Source of the DNA: Chthonomonadales bacterium
Lineage (GTDB): Bacteria > Armatimonadota > Chthonomonadetes > Chthonomonadales > CAJBBX01
DNA length: 64,000 bases
Assembly: GCA_020849275.1 (NCBI GenBank)
Contig: JADLGO010000017.1
Location: 1 to 64,000 of the forward strand
Direction of reading: 5' to 3'
The notes under the pieces are model-generated. The model saw only the letters and a list, made by a program, of their open reading frames with translations, was not told the origin of the DNA and searched no databases. Shown here in pieces: positions 2,694 through 12,978 of the stretch. How positions within the stretch are numbered: the first letter of the stretch is position 1; every line of letters starts with the position of its first letter. The position numbers and the translations under genes are program-made.

Positions 2694-2733
2694 ACCCGCT
2701 CACGGTCGGCGCCCGCGCCGACCGTGAGCGGGT
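2694..2733 (+). other. Perfect 18-bp inverted repeat before the heparinase-like gene
   Basis: ACCCGCTCACGGTCGGCG at 2694-2711 is followed by a four-base loop (CCCG) and its exact complement at 2716-2733. The hairpin ends five bases before the GGAGG ribosome binding site (2738-2742) of the gene starting at 2748. It has no T-run. It could end parAB transcripts, form a structured leader, or be a protein-binding dyad. Confidence 0.7.
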
Positions 2734-2747
2734 CACCGGAGGTTCCC

Positions 2748-4424
2748 ATGTCCGGGCTCACGCTCTCCGACGCCATCGCCGCGCTCGGGCGCTCCGCCGC
2801 CGCGATTTGCGACGCCCAGGTGACCGCGGCCGGGCGCCCCGACGCCGGCGCCATCCTGCGCGCTGACTGGGGCATCGCGGATCCGGGCGGCACCGCCGGC
2901 TTGCTCGCAGTCTGCGCCCATCTCCTCGCCGCCCGCGCCCTGCACCCCGGCGCAGCGCCGTGCGCTCCGAACGACGACACCCTCCTCGCCCGGTCGGTCC
3001 TCGCGGCGGCCTGGCTCGAGCGAGCGCAGCGCCCGAGCGGCTGCATCGACCTGCTCGACTGCAACTACGACTCCGCGCCGGACGCCGCGTTCGCGGTGCA
3101 GAACCTGGCCGCCGCCGTCGAGCTCGGGCGGCCGCTCGCGTCCCGCTCGCCGCGCTGGGCCAGCCTCCTGGCCGCGATCGAGCGGTTCCTGCGCCGGGCG
3201 GTGGGCGGCATGGTCGCCGGCGGATTCCACACGCCGAACCACCGCTGGGTGATCGCCGCGGCGCTCGCGCAGGCCGGAGCCCTCTATCCCGACCTCGACG
3301 TGACACCCACCGTGACCGCATACGTGGCGGAGGGCTTCGATCTGGATGCCGACGGCGCCTTCATCGAGCGCAGCCCCGCCGTCTACGACGGGATCTGCGA
3401 CCGTTCGCTCATGCTCCTCGCCGCGTACACCGGCTGCAAGGGCGCTATCGAGGCAGCGCGCGCCAACCTGGAGTGGAACCTGCACCTGCTGCACGCCGAC
3501 GGCACGACGGAGACCGGCCTCTCGCGCAGACAGGACCACGGCACCCGGGCCGTGCCTTACGGGCTGGTCGCGCCACTCCTCCTCTGCGATGCGGCGCAGC
3601 CGACGCCGCACCTCCGCGCGGCGGCCCGCTTCCTGTGGGAGCAGGGGGCCGCCGCGGGGCAGCAGGACGGTCTCTGGGCCTGGTACGCGATGCAGCGGCA
3701 CGGCGAGCCAGGCCCGACCTCGCCGGACGACGTGCCCGCCAGTTACCGGCGCTGGTTCCCGGCGAACGGGCTCTGGCGCCTGCGCCGGGGCCCTCTGAGC
3801 GCCTCCGCCTTTCGCGGGCGCACGGCGCTGCTCGGCCTTCGGTACGGCCAGGCGGAGCTCACGGCGATCCGGGCTAGCCTGAGCTACTTCGGCGTGGGAA
3901 ATCTGAGCGCGCGAGCCGCCGAAGAGCGCGGCGCGGGGCTGCGGGCGGAGCTGGCCGGGGAGGAGCGCCCGCACCGTCCCGGCTACGAGCTTCCGCTCGG
4001 CCGGCCGGTGGCGCCGGACGCATGGCGCGAGACGATCTCGGAGCGCGACTGGATCCCTTCGCCCCACGCGGCGGCCGAGATGGAGGTGCGCGAAGCCCCG
4101 GACGGCATCGACCTGGCCTTGCGGACACCGCACGAACCGGCGGGCGTGACCGCCCAGGTCGCGCTCGACTTCGCGCCGGGCGGCACGTGGGAAACAGGGG
4201 ACATATGTCTGCGCCCAACTGCCGGTCAGACGATCTTCTTGAAGGCGGGAGAGGGCACGATGCGCTGGGGCCACGACGTGATCGCCGTCGGCCCGGGCGC
4301 GCACGCCCACCGGATGTGGCGGATGCGCGACACGGAGGCGGCGCCCGAGAGCGTGCGAGTTCTGCTCACCTTCATCACGCCGTTCGAGCATGTGCTGCGC
4401 GTGCGCTGCCACCGCGAGCCCTGA
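2748..4424 (+). CDS. Heparinase II/III-like (alpha/alpha toroid) protein, cytoplasmic
   Basis: A 558-residue protein with an N-terminal helical half (about residues 1-330) and a beta-rich C-terminal half, the layout of heparinase II/III-like polysaccharide lyases. Features seen: GFHTPNHRWVIAAALA near residue 160 (the NHRW box of this group), a Tyr/His/Glu-containing segment at GAFIERSPAVYDGICDRSL, and SRRQDHGTRAVPYG around 262. No signal peptide is apparent, so it would act inside the cell or on imported oligosaccharides. The start ATG 2748 has GGAGG five bases upstream; a GTG at 2724 would lie in the hairpin and is less likely. The substrate is unknown. It faces an oxidoreductase gene across a bidirectional terminator. 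Confidence 0.6.
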   Translation: MSGLTLSDAIAALGRSAAAICDAQVTAAGRPDAGAILRADWGIADPGGTAGLLAVCAHLLAARALHPGAAPCAPNDDTLLARSVLAAAWLERAQRPSGCIDLLDCNYDSAPDAAFAVQNLAAAVELGRPLASRSPRWASLLAAIERFLRRAVGGMVAGGFHTPNHRWVIAAALAQAGALYPDLDVTPTVTAYVAEGFDLDADGAFIERSPAVYDGICDRSLMLLAAYTGCKGAIEAARANLEWNLHLLHADGTTETGLSRRQDHGTRAVPYGLVAPLLLCDAAQPTPHLRAAARFLWEQGAAAGQQDGLWAWYAMQRHGEPGPTSPDDVPASYRRWFPANGLWRLRRGPLSASAFRGRTALLGLRYGQAELTAIRASLSYFGVGNLSARAAEERGAGLRAELAGEERPHRPGYELPLGRPVAPDAWRETISERDWIPSPHAAAEMEVREAPDGIDLALRTPHEPAGVTAQVALDFAPGGTWETGDICLRPTAGQTIFLKAGEGTMRWGHDVIAVGPGAHAHRMWRMRDTEAAPESVRVLLTFITPFEHVLRVRCHREP

Positions 4425-5979: not shown

Positions 5980-6009
5980 ATTATACTGCACCGGCGCCGG
6001 CCCCATCAA
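5980..6009 (-). promoter_or_regulatory. cysC: Sigma-70 promoter of cysC
   Basis: On the minus strand, -35 TTGATG (6004-6009) and a perfect -10 TATAAT (5980-5985) are separated by 18 bases. The -35 box overlaps the last codons of the upstream propeller/toroid gene (stop at 6006). Transcription would start near 5973. Confidence 0.75.
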
Positions 6010-8216
6010 CGCGGCGGCGCCAGAAACCCCGCGTGGCGCCCCATCCAGTACGGAAGCAGCCAGTAGACGCCGTCGCTCTCCGTCGCGCCTCCGTCGCCCT
6101 GCACGGCCGCCCACGGGTTGCGGTCCCAGCGCAGCACGCCGCGCTCGCTCGGCGGGAGCAGACGGCTCGTCTCCAGCTCCTCCAACTCGGGCGTGTGCGC
6201 GAGCCGGACGTCGTCACGCCGGGTGTTGTCCACGGTCCAGCGAATCAGGTCGAGCGGCGCGTCTCGCAGACTGAACAGGGAGGCCTCCGGGTCCGGGTTG
6301 GCCCCGGTCAACATGCCGTACAGGTAGTTGAAGTAGGGCCCACGGTCGCCGCGCACGGCGGCATACCACTGGTCGAGCCCGCGACGGTACAGGCGCCTGA
6401 GCGCCGGGTCGTCCTCGTAGAGCAGCAGCGAGGGGAACGCAAGCGCCAGGAGCTCGTCGTCGATGTGTGTACGCCAGGCGGGGTTGAGCGTCTTGGGGCG
6501 CGCGACGTTCGCGGCGTAGCCGTGGCGACGCAGAAGGTCGAGGTAGCGCTCCTGATAGCGCGCGTCGCCGGTCATATGATAGGTGGTCTTCAGGAACGAG
6601 AGGATCTCGACGGAGTTCGTGCCCCGCTCGGCCACCCAGTTCGGGTCCTGGTTAATCTTCTCCGGCGCCCACACGGCCCAGCGGGTCGCGGCTCCGTCGA
6701 TGTCCTTCAGCACGTAGCCGTCGGCGATGATTCCGTCCATCACCTTACGAACGTGCTCGCGCACCTCGCGCCGATCGCTCTCGTCCGCTGCCAGGTCGTA
6801 AAAGGTCGCGTAGCCGTGGAAGTGCCCCGTGATCTCGTCGCTGCTCGTGTCGCCTTTCCACAGCCACTTCCCGTCGGCCGAGGGGCGCCAGCGGCGCTCG
6901 ACACGCTTGTAGCGGGGATCGCCTATGTGCTCGACCGCCCACTCGCGGGCCGTGAAGGTGCGGTTGGCGTCCGCCATCTCGGTCCAGTCCGACGGGATCA
7001 CGGTGCGCGCGACGAACGAGGGCGTTCCGGTGACGGTCTGCAGGAAGCGGAGGGCGCGAAACGCGTTCCGGGCGGCGTCGCGCGCCTCGGGATCACGCGT
7101 GGCCGCGTAGCGATATGACTGCATCGCCAGATACATGGACGTGTACTGGCCGTCGTTGTCGTCATCCCGCGGCGCCCAGGTGGCCAGGTCGCCCGGTACG
7201 CGCAGGCGGCACTTCTCCACCAGGCCCGGCGGCCGGACGTGCCGCGCCATGCAGGCCGCGCGGTAGCGCTCGGCCTTCTCCGCCAGCGTCATCGGCACGG
7301 CGCCGATTCGGCTCACACCGGCCCCCGTGGCGATCCAGGCCGCGCCGTCGGGCCCGAAGGCGATGTCGCGCACGTCGTCGCGCACCAGCCAGCGGGCGCT
7401 GTGGCGGACCGCCCACCGCTCCCCATCGCGTCGCGCCGCGCCCAGGTCAGTGCCCACCCACATCGCACCGTCCGGCGCGCGCCGCACGCAGCGCACCTGC
7501 ACGCTCGGCAGCCCCTCCCGCGGCGTGAACCGCCCGGCCGGCGCGCCGTTGCGCAGCACGGACACGCCGCCCAGGCACCCGACCCACAGCGTGCCGCCCG
7601 GACCCGCGGCGAGCCCCCGCACCGACGCACTCACCAGGTCCTTCTCGGAGTGCAGCCAGCGCGTGCCGCCGTCGATCACGTGGTAGAGTCCGCTCTCGGT
7701 GCCGATCCAGAGGCCGCCGGTCCCGTCCGGCATCGCGGCGTGCAGACTGCGCGCCGACGGCAGAGTCAGCGCCTCCACGCCATCACCGCGCACGCGCCAG
7801 CGCCCGTCCGGCCCGAGCGCGATCATCGCCGCGCCGTCCGCCACCACGAGTGCCACCGGAGCGTCGATGCCCGGCACGCGCCGCAGCGACCGCGTGCCGC
7901 GATAGAGGCCGTTCCACGCGCCGGCCCACACCTCGCCGCGCCCGTCGACGGCCACCGCGAAGGCCGGACCGGCATCGGACGCGTCCATGCGCTGCTGCCA
8001 CGCGGCGCCGCCCGCGGTCAGCGCGAAGACGCCGGCGCGCGTCGCGGCCCACACCGTGCCGTCCGGATGCACGGCGACGGCGCGCACGTCGTTGGCTTCG
8101 TCGCTCTGCAGCGGATAGCGGCGGTGACTCTCCTGCATGAACGGGATGTCCGGCGCCGGGGGCGGCGCGGGGGCAGCGGGGAGCGCGGCAAGCACCGCGC
8201 ACAGGGCAAGCGTCAT
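6006..8216 (-). CDS. Secreted beta-propeller plus alpha/alpha-toroid protein
   Basis: A 736-residue protein. Residues 1-20 are a signal peptide (MTLALCAVLAALPAAPAP). About residues 35-310 hold repeated blades of the type 'VRAVAVHPDGTVWAATRAGV' and 'LWIGTESGLYHV', the two-component-regulator-propeller repeat normally found in periplasmic sensor domains of hybrid kinases. The remainder (about 330-736) is helical and rich in Trp/Tyr (WLWKGDTSSDEITGHFHGY, RTHIDDELLALAFPSLLLYE), as in six-hairpin glycosidase-like toroids. So a sensory-type propeller is joined to a putative carbohydrate-active domain rather than a kinase. Start ATG 8216 has GGAGG seven bases upstream and begins the signal peptide. 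Substrate not known. Confidence 0.6.
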   Translation of the reverse strand: MTLALCAVLAALPAAPAPPPAPDIPFMQESHRRYPLQSDEANDVRAVAVHPDGTVWAATRAGVFALTAGGAAWQQRMDASDAGPAFAVAVDGRGEVWAGAWNGLYRGTRSLRRVPGIDAPVALVVADGAAMIALGPDGRWRVRGDGVEALTLPSARSLHAAMPDGTGGLWIGTESGLYHVIDGGTRWLHSEKDLVSASVRGLAAGPGGTLWVGCLGGVSVLRNGAPAGRFTPREGLPSVQVRCVRRAPDGAMWVGTDLGAARRDGERWAVRHSARWLVRDDVRDIAFGPDGAAWIATGAGVSRIGAVPMTLAEKAERYRAACMARHVRPPGLVEKCRLRVPGDLATWAPRDDDNDGQYTSMYLAMQSYRYAATRDPEARDAARNAFRALRFLQTVTGTPSFVARTVIPSDWTEMADANRTFTAREWAVEHIGDPRYKRVERRWRPSADGKWLWKGDTSSDEITGHFHGYATFYDLAADESDRREVREHVRKVMDGIIADGYVLKDIDGAATRWAVWAPEKINQDPNWVAERGTNSVEILSFLKTTYHMTGDARYQERYLDLLRRHGYAANVARPKTLNPAWRTHIDDELLALAFPSLLLYEDDPALRRLYRRGLDQWYAAVRGDRGPYFNYLYGMLTGANPDPEASLFSLRDAPLDLIRWTVDNTRRDDVRLAHTPELEELETSRLLPPSERGVLRWDRNPWAAVQGDGGATESDGVYWLLPYWMGRHAGFLAPPR

Positions 8217-8294
8217 GGCGTATCCTCCAGGCTCGGGGTTCCGGCGCGCGGCCGGCGACGACAAGATCGGTGCAATGCGAGGGCCAGGTCGACG

Positions 8295-9135: not shown

Positions 9136-9484
9136 GGCCGCCGCGTGAGCCGAGCTCGCCCGCGCAACGATCGCGGGCCCGAGGGACCCGAGACGCCATC
9201 CGTAGGACGCCCGATCGCGGCGGCGGAAGGAACGGCCGCGTGGGCAGCGAACTGATGCGTGAGCGCGCCCAACGATTGCGGCGACCGGGCCGCGCTCGCC
9301 GAGCGGCGGGGGCCACTCGAAGGTGCGCCGACCGACAAGGCACATGGGGCCGAGCGCCCACCGCTCGCAGGCCGCCATCGCGTCACAGCGCGGCGTCGGC
9401 CGCGCGTTGACCCGTTCGGCGGAAGGCACGGAGCCGGGTCGATGGCGGGACGGCCGCGTGGCCGTGGAGGGCGGGACGTTGAGC
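9136..9484. other. Intergenic region between divergent genes
   Basis: About 350 bases without a convincing gene. Open frames exist on both strands only because of the high GC content. I see no riboswitch, tRNA or clear promoter for the plus-strand gene; a TTGACC at about 9410 has no acceptable -10 box. Confidence 0.5.
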
Positions 9485-11824
9485 ATGGTCGCGACGCGTG
9501 TATTTGCAGCGGCAGTGGTCCTGATGACCGCCGCGGTGCTGTGCGCAGCAGCCGACCCGGGAGCGCGGAACGCCTCGGCGCCGACAGACGCGAAGGAGGG
9601 AGGGGCGATGGGAGGGCAGGGCGGCGACGCGGCCGCGCGCCGCGTCATCGAGGGTGTCCCGAGGGTCGGCTTCTACGACGGCGGAAGGCGCCCGCCGGAG
9701 GACGACATGTTCCCCGCCTGTGTGCGGGCGTTCCTGGAGCACCGACGAGAGCCGCGCGACTTCGCCGGGGATCCGCGGAAGGGCGATCCCTGGCACGACG
9801 TGCACGTCTACGCGATGGCGATGACCGGGTCATCGTTTCGCCTGCTGTGGAATCGTGAGCGGCCGCGCGCCGGCCAGTCCGGCATCCTGGCGCTGGCGCC
9901 GGATGCGCTCGAGCCCTTCCGGCGCGGTCTGGCGGCCGTGGGATACGGATCGGACATCCTCCTGCGGCGCGACTTCGCGCGCGAGCTCGGGATCGCCCAG
10001 GAAGGCGACCACTACGAGGCGGAGTTCCGACGCCGAATCTGCGAGAGCATCGACGCCGGCAAGCCCGTGATCGCCATCGGAGTCATCGGTCCGCCGGAAT
10101 GCTGCCTGGTCACTGGCTACGAGGCCGGCGGCGACGCGCTGGTCGGCTGGAGCTTCTTCCAGAACGACCGGGCCCAGAACGCCAGTGTGGAGATCCTGCC
10201 CTCCGGAGTGTTCCGCAAGCGTGACTGGTACCCGGCGACGCGCGGCCTCATCCTGATCGGCGAGCCCCGACCCTTGCCGCCGCTCAGGGAGCGCTGCCGC
10301 CGCGCCCTGGAGTGGGGCCTGCGCGTGATGCGCACCCCACGAGTGCGCGGCGTGGCAGCCGGTCAGGCCGCCTTCACCGCATGGGCCGACTCCCTGCTGG
10401 ACGACGATGCGTACCGCGCCATGGATGCGGCCGCTCTGCGCGAGCGCCACGGCACGCACTGGATGCAGGCCGGCACGCTGGCGGAGGCTCGAGCCTGGGG
10501 CGCCGTGTTCCTGCACCGCGTCGCCGATGCGGAGCCCGAGGTGGGCGAGGACCTGCACCAGGCGGCGCGCTGCTTCGACGCGGAGCACGACCTCGTCTGG
10601 GCCATGTGGGAGTTCACGCGCGCGCAGAGCGAGGAGGAGTCCGCGCGCAAGATGGCCGACCCGGGCATCCGCCGGCGCATCGTGCCGCTCATCCGCCTGG
10701 CGCGCGAGAAGGACGCCGAGGCGGCCGCCTGCATCGAACGCGCGCTGCGCAGGCTTTCCCCGAAGACGCCCGAGCCGCGGGCCAAGGAGCGCGCCGTGCT
10801 GGAGGGCGTGCCGCGCGTCGGCTTTGACCGGCATCTCTCGCCGTTCCCTGGGTCCCTCCACGCGCTCCTGACCTTCCGCGGCGAGAAGGTGTCATACGAC
10901 TACCTGATGGGTGTGACGGGCGCGGCCTTTCGCCGCGCCTGGAACCGCGACGACGGCGGCAATGTGGACCTGATGTACTTCCAGCCGGAACCGCACCGCC
11001 GCGCGATGGACGCGCTGGGCTACGACTTGCGCACGGCCCCGCGAGACAACCGCGCCGCCATGCTGGCGCTGGTGCGCGAGAGCATCGCGCAGGGCAGTCC
11101 GGCGATCGCCTTCGGCGTGATCGGGCCGCCGGAGGCCGGCCTGGTGACCGGCTACGATCGCGGCGGGGACGTGCTGCACGGCTGGAGCTACTTCCAGGGC
11201 GACGCCGGGAGCGGCTACTACGCGCAGCGCGACTGGTTCAAGCGGATGTCGCGCGGCTGCCCGATCGGCGCCCTGCGGGTCGGCGACAAGCTGGAGCATC
11301 GCCGGCCAGAGCGCGAGACCCTCCAGGTCACGCTCGAGTGGGCCGTCGACCTGGCCCGCACGGCCAATCGGCCCGGCATCCCCGACCACGTGTGCGGGCT
11401 CGCCGCCTACGAGGCCTGGGCGGCCGGCATCGAGGTGGACGCCGACTACCCCCGCGACGACCCGAAGGTGCTCGCCACGCGGGTCATGGTGCATGGCGAC
11501 CAGTGCGTCATGCTCGAGGAGCGTCGCAACGCGGCGGCCTACCTTCGCTGCATGGTTGCCGTCGCCCCGGAGGCCGCCGGGCTTCTCACGGGCGCGGCCG
11601 ACCTCTACGATCAGGCCGCAAGCTGCATGGACCGCGTATGGCTCTGGGGCCCCGACATGGGGCCGGCCGTGCAGCGGGCCCTGGCGGACCACGCGACGCG
11701 CGTCGGCATCGCCGCCGGCATCCGCGAGGCCGGCGCGATCGAGGAGCGGGCGGTCGCGCTCCTGGAGAGGGCGCTTGGGGCGATGCGAGACGCGGCCGAG
11801 CCGCGCCACCAGGAGGCGCCATGA
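9485..11824 (+). CDS. Two-module BtrH_N/C39-peptidase-like protein
   Basis: A 779-residue protein with two copies of a ~360-residue module (about 54-430 and 437-779). Each opens with EGVPRVGF, continues with SFRLLWNR or AFRRAWNR and 'EPFRRGLAAVGY'-like text, and has the signature AIGVIGPPECCLVTGYEAGG followed by LVGWSFFQ. This layout resembles BtrH N-terminal/C39-like papain-fold domains, in which a Cys near the N-terminus and a later His form the active site. Copy 1 keeps the early Cys (FPACVRAF), copy 2 does not (FPGSLHALL), and the usual His position reads CC or AG. Protease activity is therefore doubtful, and acyltransfer, binding or another role is possible. Starts: ATG 9485 gives a signal-peptide-like N-terminus (VFAAAVVLMTAAVLCAAA); TTG 9479 has better-spaced GGAGG; an internal ATG 9608 has a very strong Shine-Dalgarno and would give a cytoplasmic form. 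It is translationally coupled to the next gene. Confidence 0.6.
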   Translation: MVATRVFAAAVVLMTAAVLCAAADPGARNASAPTDAKEGGAMGGQGGDAAARRVIEGVPRVGFYDGGRRPPEDDMFPACVRAFLEHRREPRDFAGDPRKGDPWHDVHVYAMAMTGSSFRLLWNRERPRAGQSGILALAPDALEPFRRGLAAVGYGSDILLRRDFARELGIAQEGDHYEAEFRRRICESIDAGKPVIAIGVIGPPECCLVTGYEAGGDALVGWSFFQNDRAQNASVEILPSGVFRKRDWYPATRGLILIGEPRPLPPLRERCRRALEWGLRVMRTPRVRGVAAGQAAFTAWADSLLDDDAYRAMDAAALRERHGTHWMQAGTLAEARAWGAVFLHRVADAEPEVGEDLHQAARCFDAEHDLVWAMWEFTRAQSEEESARKMADPGIRRRIVPLIRLAREKDAEAAACIERALRRLSPKTPEPRAKERAVLEGVPRVGFDRHLSPFPGSLHALLTFRGEKVSYDYLMGVTGAAFRRAWNRDDGGNVDLMYFQPEPHRRAMDALGYDLRTAPRDNRAAMLALVRESIAQGSPAIAFGVIGPPEAGLVTGYDRGGDVLHGWSYFQGDAGSGYYAQRDWFKRMSRGCPIGALRVGDKLEHRRPERETLQVTLEWAVDLARTANRPGIPDHVCGLAAYEAWAAGIEVDADYPRDDPKVLATRVMVHGDQCVMLEERRNAAAYLRCMVAVAPEAAGLLTGAADLYDQAASCMDRVWLWGPDMGPAVQRALADHATRVGIAAGIREAGAIEERAVALLERALGAMRDAAEPRHQEAP

Positions 11825-12978
11825 CTCCGGTGATGATCGAGCCACCCCGCGCCGTGCTGGAGGGCGTGCCGCGCGTCCACTTCTACGATGGCGGCAGCCG
11901 CTGCCCGGAGGACGTGCCGTTCCCTTCGTGCGTGCGCGCCTGCCTCGAGTACATGAACGAGAGCGCGGGCTGCCGCTCCATCGGTTGCCACAACGCCGAA
12001 TACCCGCTCGGCTGCACCTACGCCTGGGTGCTCGCGACCTCGGGAGCCGGGTTCCGATTGCTCTGGAGTCCGGACCGCTGGGACCTGGCCAACGGCGACG
12101 TCATGCTGATGTGCGAGGACCCCGAGGAGCCCTTTCGACGCGGCCTGGCATCGCTCGGGTTCGAGCACAGCTTCGTGATGCGCCAGGATCGCGCGGCCGC
12201 GTTGGGCCACCACGGCGCGGTGGCGAGCACACCGGAGGGCCTCCTCTCGCCCATCGTCGCCAGCGTCCGTGACCGCAGCCGGCCAGCGATGGCCTTCGGC
12301 GTCGTCGGCCCGCCGGAGTGCTGCCTGGTAACCGGCTACGACGACGGCGGCGACACGCTGATCGGCTGGAGCTTCTTCCAGGGCTTCGAGGAGAACGCCG
12401 CCAACCTCGAGACCGAGCCCGGCGGCTACTATCGCAAGCGCGGATGGTTCGACGACACCGTGGCCGTGCTCGCACTGGGGGATCGCCGCGAGCGGCCGCC
12501 GCGGCGGGAGGTCTACCGCGCCGCGCTGGCCTGGGGCGTGAGCCTGATGCGCACGCCGCGAGTTCGGCGGCGCGCCGCGGGCATCGCGGGATTCGATGCC
12601 TGGGCGGCCTCGCTCCTGCGCGATGAGGAGTTCGCGGAGCGGTCCATCGAGGACCTTCGCGCGCGCTACATCGTCCATTACGACGCCGTGGGCACCGTCG
12701 CGGAGGCGCGCTGGTACACGGCGGGCTTCCTGGCCGAGGCCGCGCGCGACTCGGCCGGCATGGCGTCGGCGCTCTACACGGCGGCCTCCTGTTTCGCGGC
12801 CGAGCACGACCTGATGTGGCGCGTGTGGGCCCTGGCCGGCGGCAACGGAGTGTCGGACGAGCACGCGCGCAAGCTCGCCGAGCCCGCCGCGCGACACGCC
12901 ATCGCGGAGGTGCTCCGGGAGTCGCGCGACCTGGACGCTCGCGCCGCCGACGCGCTCGAGCGCGCGCTCAGAGCGTGA
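11821..12978 (+). CDS. Single-module BtrH_N/C39-like protein
   Basis: A 385-residue protein with one copy of the module seen twice in the preceding gene: LEGVPRVHFYDGGSRCPED at residues 14-32, FPSCVRACLEYM with the early Cys, GAGFRLLWSPDRW, GVVGPPECCLVTGYDDGG, LIGWSFFQ, and a C-terminal helical part (TVAEARWYTAGFLAE, CFAAEHDLMWRVW). No signal peptide. The ATG overlaps the stop of the upstream gene as ATGA, with AGGAGG five bases before it. Of the three copies this is the most complete, so it is probably closest to the ancestral form. The function of the family is not established to my knowledge. Confidence 0.6.
   Translation: MTPVMIEPPRAVLEGVPRVHFYDGGSRCPEDVPFPSCVRACLEYMNESAGCRSIGCHNAEYPLGCTYAWVLATSGAGFRLLWSPDRWDLANGDVMLMCEDPEEPFRRGLASLGFEHSFVMRQDRAAALGHHGAVASTPEGLLSPIVASVRDRSRPAMAFGVVGPPECCLVTGYDDGGDTLIGWSFFQGFEENAANLETEPGGYYRKRGWFDDTVAVLALGDRRERPPRREVYRAALAWGVSLMRTPRVRRRAAGIAGFDAWAASLLRDEEFAERSIEDLRARYIVHYDAVGTVAEARWYTAGFLAEAARDSAGMASALYTAASCFAAEHDLMWRVWALAGGNGVSDEHARKLAEPAARHAIAEVLRESRDLDARAADALERALRA

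Follow-up and report, generated by a model that had tools for sequence, protein, structure and literature searches.

A widespread BtrH-like domain without its catalytic triad: three modules in two adjacent genes of a Chthonomonadales bacterium and presumed input domains of transcription regulators

Background

The BtrH-like carrier-protein-dependent condensation enzymes (BtrH, CcbD/LmbD, CtaG and AziU3) share one full-length fold, made of a C39-like half and a helical half. In CcbD, as given in excerpts of PMC12945683, the catalytic triad is Cys-His-Glu and the cleft binds an amino sugar, with Asp114, Met128, Leu129, His131 and Tyr270. Here we analyse two adjacent genes that carry three modules of this fold, in a window of 64,000 nucleotides from a Chthonomonadales bacterium (positions 1 to 64,000 of contig JADLGO010000017.1, assembly GCA_020849275.1; host genome of 4.8 Mb in 73 contigs). 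Gene A (9479..11824, plus strand, counted from a TTG start, with the next in-frame ATG at 9485) encodes a two-module protein with the modules W1 and W2, and gene B (11821..12978, plus strand) encodes the single module W3. The modules show profile homology to BtrH_N proteins. Nevertheless, they differ from the condensation enzymes in three respects: they do not have the Cys-His-Asp/Glu triad, they fall below the Pfam cut-off for BtrH_N and, in relatives, they are fused to regulators. The domain is real, widespread and unnamed, and an earlier note on this DNA, made from the sequence alone, was right about its fold and wrong about its catalysis and its evolution.

Some other systems resemble this one in part. 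Rob has an N-terminal helix-turn-helix (HTH) followed by a C-terminal GyrI-like binding domain. The AraC fusions of our domain are like Rob-type AraC regulators in their N-terminal HTH, near the Rob/SoxS/MarA models, and in their C-terminal sensor-like domain, but this sensor-like part is of the BtrH kind, and an HTH is missing from the window genes. The C39 peptidase-like domain of HlyB lacks the catalytic Cys. It is a C39-type domain with a role other than leader cleavage (excerpts of PMC11026475), but it is part of an ABC exporter and does not have the helical BtrH-type half. The extracytoplasmic function (ECF) sigma factors with C-terminal extensions form 26 groups, among them ECF41 with a SnoaL-like extension and ECF42 with tetratricopeptide repeats (TPR), according to excerpts of PMC8999054. 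The ECF fusions of our domain likewise have sigma2 and sigma4 followed by a large C-terminal domain; this domain is different, and a BtrH- or C39-like extension is not met in those excerpts. Finally, in TipAL/TipAS and AlbA a binding domain is found alone as well as joined to a DNA-binding part, domains may stand in tandem and one gene can have two starts, as is probably the case here; a tandem pair of domains lets AlbA trap albicidin, and TipAS is produced separately from TipAL (excerpts of PMC6078987). Their fold is unrelated, the extra start would here add a signal peptide instead of an HTH, and a drug-binding role is putative.

Fold and distant homology

W1 (9626..10756, plus strand) consists of a BtrH-like domain and a helical C-terminal domain and matched the family profile with E 4.0e-131, whereas W2 (10775..11785, plus strand) matched it with E 4.8e-107. 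In a sequence search W3 finds W1 with 44% identity (E 1.9e-88) and W2 with 41% identity (E 2.5e-34), therefore the resemblance among the modules is not due to chance and the three C39/BtrH-like modules that had been proposed for the two genes are real. The common signatures were also recovered, and W1 and W3 each depart from them by a single substitution: the first motif reads GVIGPPECCLVTGYE in W1, GVIGPPEAGLVTGYD in W2 and GVVGPPECCLVTGYD in W3, and the GWS signature reads VGWSFFQ, HGWSYFQ and IGWSFFQ respectively.

The AlphaFold model of W3, made from an 11-row alignment, had a predicted local distance difference test score (pLDDT) of 92.9 and a predicted template modelling score (pTM) of 0.91. 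When this model was compared with the PDB by Foldseek, the top five rows were AziU3 and CcbD entries (best E 6.2e-4). A second structural alignment gave Z 19.0 for AziU3 (293 residues aligned, root mean square deviation 5.4), Z 17.5 for CcbD (282 aligned, 4.9) and Z 17.4 for CtaG (269 aligned, 4.0). These alignments span nearly the whole of W3, and the next rows, which are helical designs, reached Z 11 or less. C39 and papain peptidases matched residues ~7-228 only, at Z about 7-9. The model of gene A from 9608 (pLDDT 87.7, pTM 0.59) folds both modules, although their mutual placing is unsure. In this model W1 matches AziU3, CtaG and CcbD at Z 16-19 and accounts for all the full-length BtrH-like rows, whereas only the C39-like half of W2 (residues 391-565 of the model) was matched, by papain-fold peptidases at Z 8-10. 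Over both models the papain-fold peptidases, including PCAT1 and phytochelatin synthase, match the C39-like half at Z 7-10.

Furthermore, hhalign joined the family profile to seven BtrH_N proteins (three with the catalytic Cys and His, four without) with probability 97.4 and E 1.1e-11 over 304 columns, the helical half included; against a subset of four of the seven the E-value was 7e-7. Thus the predicted W3 is papain/C39-like and of the BtrH branch, just as the earlier note had supposed from the letters.

This relationship lies below the reach of the family models. The window proteins matched no Pfam model above cut-off, the best being BtrH_N (PF14399) with 14.2 bits for P0001 against a gathering cut-off of 29.7; P0002 gave no match to PF14399, and nothing in the host genome exceeded this gathering cut-off. 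Among the 87 family members of the alignment described below, BtrH_N was hit at E <= 0.1 by two (best 0.002), and the weak Pfam hits, to Peptidase_C10 (4), BtrH_N (2) and Peptidase_C39_2 (1), were all of the papain-fold class. The family is indeed without a name: none of the Pfam and NCBIfam models scores it above cut-off, and a PHROGs search gave nothing. A PDB sequence search with P0002 and the alignments A2 and A3 returned no relatives, just coiled-coil-like chance matches, and P0002 had no match in the plasmid records.

An intermediate between the two families was seen at L116:715-2433. This lipoprotein has TPR-like repeats and, after them, a divergent BtrH-like module that matches PF14399. 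In four Armatimonadota proteins above the BtrH_N cut-off (L111-L114) Tyr takes the place of the catalytic Cys and the His is missing, so that here the triad was apparently lost on another, separate occasion.

Loss of the catalytic triad

The register of the triad was set by hhalign with L128/L132. His132 of L128 falls on Glu166 of W3 (12316..12318) and Asp150 on Trp183 (12367..12369), while Ser26-Ala27 falls on Ser36-Cys37 (Cys37 at 11929..11931), which places Cys23 of L128 on Pro33 (11917..11919; all on the plus strand). The hhalign alignment begins at residue 36 of W3 and the last three residues to Pro33 are an ungapped extension. The chain ranges in the structure comparison made with the gene A model point to the same place, since residue 7 of CtaG lies on residue 30 of the model and the CtaG nucleophile is residue 11, as implied by the C11A variant.

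We counted residues in 87 modules (alignment A2), which are the 83 that passed a coverage filter, minus 6 near-duplicates (L032, L086 and two each of L050 and L051), plus 10 window or relative modules. Position 33 is Pro in 61 modules and Cys in 4. Position 166 is Glu in 78 and Asp in 5, i.e. acidic in 83/87, with other residues in 4 and His in none. Position 183 is Trp in 83 and Arg in 4, and never Asp, Asn, Glu or Gln. From these counts the family as a whole, including W1, W2 and W3, has lost the triad and has near-invariant residues in its place: the BtrH-like Cys-His-Asp/Glu triad is absent at columns 33, 166 and 183 of the 87 modules, and the catalytic Cys and His of Peptidase C39 are absent at the aligned columns. 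The replacements are largely alike in AraC-fused, ECF-fused and lone forms. Other near-invariant positions are Gln187 (84/87), Trp209 (87/87) and Pro155 (87/87), and taken together with Glu166 and Trp183 they fit a conserved binding pocket better than decay.

The earlier note had taken an early Cys for the C39-type nucleophile, kept in copies 1 and 3 and lost in copy 2. Actually, this Cys is present in W1 and W3 and is Ser in W2, but it is residue 37, one helical turn past the nucleophile position, which lies four residues earlier and is mostly Pro. The same note rightly saw no His at the usual position, where all three copies have Glu. On the other hand, copy 2 does not stand out as an inactive partner or scaffold, because the triad is missing in all copies and throughout the family. 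For this reason we also put an active C39 peptidase or acyltransferase low.

Fusions to transcription regulators

The genome scan and the tree gave the Armatimonadota as the nearest named relatives, and the domain occurs in 78/291 genomes of this phylum as well as in 10/40 genomes of the genus of Paenibacillus rubinfantis. The best 80 of the 91 loci found in named genomes are spread over Armatimonadota, Chloroflexota, Planctomycetota, Bacillota, Thermotogota, Spirochaetota and other groups. In 27 of these 80 loci (Bacillota, Thermotogota and Spirochaetota) an AraC-type HTH lies N-terminal to the domain, and in 8 an ECF sigma factor does so, among them loci from Planctomycetota, Acidobacteriota, Aminicenantes and Hebobacteria; 4 further ECF fusions were found among 14 chosen Armatimonadota regions. 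A Pfam scan of the 39 N-termini confirmed HTH_18 and HTH_AraC in 27 and sigma-70 regions 2 and 4 in 12, including the 4 from Armatimonadota. L075 has an AraC part that matches the RobA/SoxS/MarA models over their HTH, below the whole-protein cut-offs.

Neither label forms a single clade on the 87-row tree. The AraC label requires 8 changes, at least 6 of them forced by starred branches, and the ECF label 4, at least 3 of them forced; hence the domain has been joined to, or lost from, regulators repeatedly. When a domain repeatedly follows transcription modules of two unrelated kinds, it is usually taken to be an input domain, and so we presume this one, for which neither Pfam nor NCBIfam has a model, to be the input domain of two unrelated classes of regulators. 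As a part joined to gene regulators elsewhere it is probably a detector of a chemical signal. We found no description of it in regulators in the open-licence literature, which is a weak negative because of that restriction.

These fusions make the family more interesting than a degenerate pair of peptidases would be. Naming the domain would give a set of orphan regulators one common and testable hypothesis, with one pocket and one assay, and it would be a clear case of the fold of an antibiotic-synthesis enzyme being reused for sensing.

Regarding the surroundings, no operon partner was common among the 584 neighbouring open reading frames of the 80 loci; the largest neighbour clusters covered 9 loci each (ABC/UvrA-type or AraC/sensor genes), with no common pathway.

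Some individual loci deserve mention. The gene of an AraC-BtrH-like fusion is followed by that of a UvrA-like ABC protein in L080:1849-7166, L085:5554-10820, L082:700-3207 and L106:5521-10760, with TIGR00630 above cut-off for L080 and L106 and with Lachnospiraceae and Defluviitaleaceae as hosts; in L080, L085 and L106 a small nucleotidyltransferase-like gene also comes after the fusion gene. In L171:1104-3882 (minus strand) an ECF-sigma-module gene overlaps the downstream gene, whose product is a module protein that carries a Tat-like signal peptide, a pairing of a sensor-sigma with an exported module. The AraC-module protein of L110:5452-8304 has 429 extra C-terminal residues that match no Pfam family and are perhaps a second, divergent module.

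Export and second start of gene A

Gene A probably encodes a signal peptide and also has a further start for a cytosolic form. The probable Sec signal peptide, MVATRVFAAAVVLMTAAVLCAAA (9485..9553, plus strand), was called by a crude hydrophobicity scan, and 9485 is the first ATG of this stretch. The TTG at 9479 has a Shine-Dalgarno sequence, GGAGG at 9466-9470 with a spacer of 8 nt (spacing by eye), better spaced than that for ATG 9485. The second start (9593..9610, plus strand) would be the in-frame ATG 9608, which lies after the signal peptide and before W1 and has a strong Shine-Dalgarno sequence, AAGGAGG at 9593-9599, again with a spacer of 8 nt.

Signal-peptide-like stretches are also N-terminal in the orthologous two-module proteins L010, L058 and L165, but none was found in L053 and the three-module proteins L050-L052. 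The crude scan found them in 9/58 module genes without an HTH or sigma part, a set that we enlarged by eye with L010, L164 and L170, and it found none in gene B. Start codons between the signal peptide and the module had a Shine-Dalgarno sequence in 7/19 cases (12 genes), against 13/378 deeper within those 12 genes (Fisher p 9e-6); the question was prompted by the window gene, which itself counts among the 7, L010 is closely related to L165, and AAGGAG arises readily from Lys-Glu codons in GC-rich DNA. Exported and cytosolic forms of one gene A protein are therefore a lead rather than a demonstration.

Genes A and B share an ATGA overlap and AGGAGG (11811-11816) lies 4 nt upstream of the ATG of gene B, which makes a translational coupling of the two genes plausible.

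Function of the modules

We lean, with a modest preference, towards the explanation that the modules are a catalytically dead BtrH-like ligand-sensing domain, present in the window without a DNA-binding partner. A papain-fold branch of the BtrH kind, with its C39-like and helical halves, would have lost catalysis and turned into such a domain, and a small molecule would be bound in the old active-site cleft, lined by Glu166, Trp183 and Gln187. In the fused forms, binding would change how active the regulator is, in the manner of Rob or of ECF factors that carry sensory extensions. The window genes would be versions without the DNA-binding domain: the product of gene A an exported, perhaps also cytosolic, two-module binding protein, and that of gene B a cytosolic single module, made together with gene A and with the same ligand or one akin to it. 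Of all this, the fold, the distant homology to BtrH_N proteins, the loss of the triad, the fusions and the separate origins of the copies are results of computation, and ligand binding and its effect on the regulators are inferred.

It is likely that the cleft binds a small molecule or a peptide and in this way controls the regulator in the fused forms. Since CcbD holds an amino sugar in its cleft, amino sugars would be the first guess for the class of ligand. It is a guess that one ligand, buffered or relayed in this way, is bound by W1-W2 on the outer side of the inner membrane and by W3 on its inner side. We regard as improbable the fuller history in which a triad-less papain-fold condensation enzyme became a sensor domain that was repeatedly captured by AraC regulators and ECF sigma factors and was doubled in Armatimonadota, where two starts of one gene would give exported and cytosolic forms that compare a ligand across the membrane.

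Several points weigh against the sensing explanation. Any ligand, partner or regulon of such a sensor would be putative. In 45 of the 80 loci there is no recognised DNA-binding part, some of these loci being cut by contig ends; the window genes have no attached regulator, and the own-genome matches examined include no regulator-fused copy. The neighbours of the fused regulators differ so widely that they point to no pathway. In addition, the signal peptide was called by a crude script, the register of the triad depends on a profile alignment that starts three residues after the Cys position, and the near-invariant pocket residues could be structural, or serve one ubiquitous ligand or another chemistry.

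Among the alternatives, the one that survives best, although we think it unlikely, is a module for protein-protein interaction that binds no small molecule and would serve as an anti-sigma-like clamp, as a scaffold or for oligomerisation. The helical half is large, the module-specific changes cluster in it (top pairs 291/329/294/333/336), and the TPR extensions of ECF42 are thought to act by protein contact (excerpts of PMC8999054). Nevertheless, conservation is strongest not there but around the former active site, which belongs to the C39-like half.

Somewhat more doubtful is an active enzyme with a site rebuilt around Cys37 and/or Glu166, which would make or break acyl bonds like CcbD and CtaG. 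The closest folds are acyltransferases, and Cys37, present in 57/87 modules, co-occurs with Cys168 (both in 47/87; Fisher p 4.6e-4, kinship ignored). However, position 37 is Ser in 12, Ala in 11, Val in 6 and Thr in 1, i.e. it is replaced in 30/87 modules, including W2, while the rest of the pocket is kept, and no His stands at 166. The covariation of 37 with 168 is modest, at rank about 2,034 of 58,700 pairs, and we also set aside a Cys37-Cys168 redox pair, for which this weak covariation is the only sign.

Of similarly low probability is that the lone tandem forms are sequestering proteins for a toxic natural product, like AlbA and TipAS, although for these forms it is the most appealing rival. 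They are a sensor-type domain without a DNA-binding part, often duplicated in tandem and possibly with long and short products of one gene, for which there is a precedent (excerpts of PMC6078987), and in some Bacillota the AraC fusion adjoins a UvrA-like ABC protein. But this UvrA neighbourhood occurs in four loci only, three of them close relatives, no resistance gene lies near the window copies, and both the role and any ligand are putative.

History of the three copies

The trees point to old and separate origins of the three copies. In the 26-row tree the fusion proteins of four other lineages (G038, UBA11051, Chthonomonas and LJ_bin-0733) have their first modules grouped with W1 and their last modules with W2, with 100/100 support in both cases; in the 87-row tree the support is 99 for W1 and 100 for W2. 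The clade of W2, thus one of C-terminal modules, also includes the single-module proteins L093 and L099. W3 is nearer to W1, yet separate from it. The approximately unbiased (AU) test, run on the 26-row subset, rejected W1, W2 and W3 together (cost of 265 log-likelihood units, p 1.6e-5) as well as W1 and W3 together (65 units, p 9e-11). These clades and rejected constraints indicate that the two-module gene is an old architecture and that gene B has a separate history. Therefore the local expansion with one copy turned scaffold, which the earlier note had read from the adjacent modules and their common signatures, is very improbable: the module trees gave separate origins, an outcome that the note itself had named as refuting, the triad is lost in every copy, and short of gene conversion or a long-branch error the tree refutes it.

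Other genes and copies

The Pfam scan found neither an AraC HTH nor sigma-70 regions 2 and 4 in the window genes A and B. The minus strand of the window encodes, at 6006-8264, a protein with two-component-regulator propeller repeats (Reg_prop) and no Pfam kinase domain. A 566-residue protein (2724-4424), with no Pfam match at E 0.01, adjoins a GFO/IDH oxidoreductase and an APS-kinase-like gene. Other copies of the module in the host genome lie on contigs C41, C12 and C23, with no recognised regulator part in the stretches examined. The copy on C23 (L164:845-3121) is another two-module protein, with a Tat-like signal sequence.

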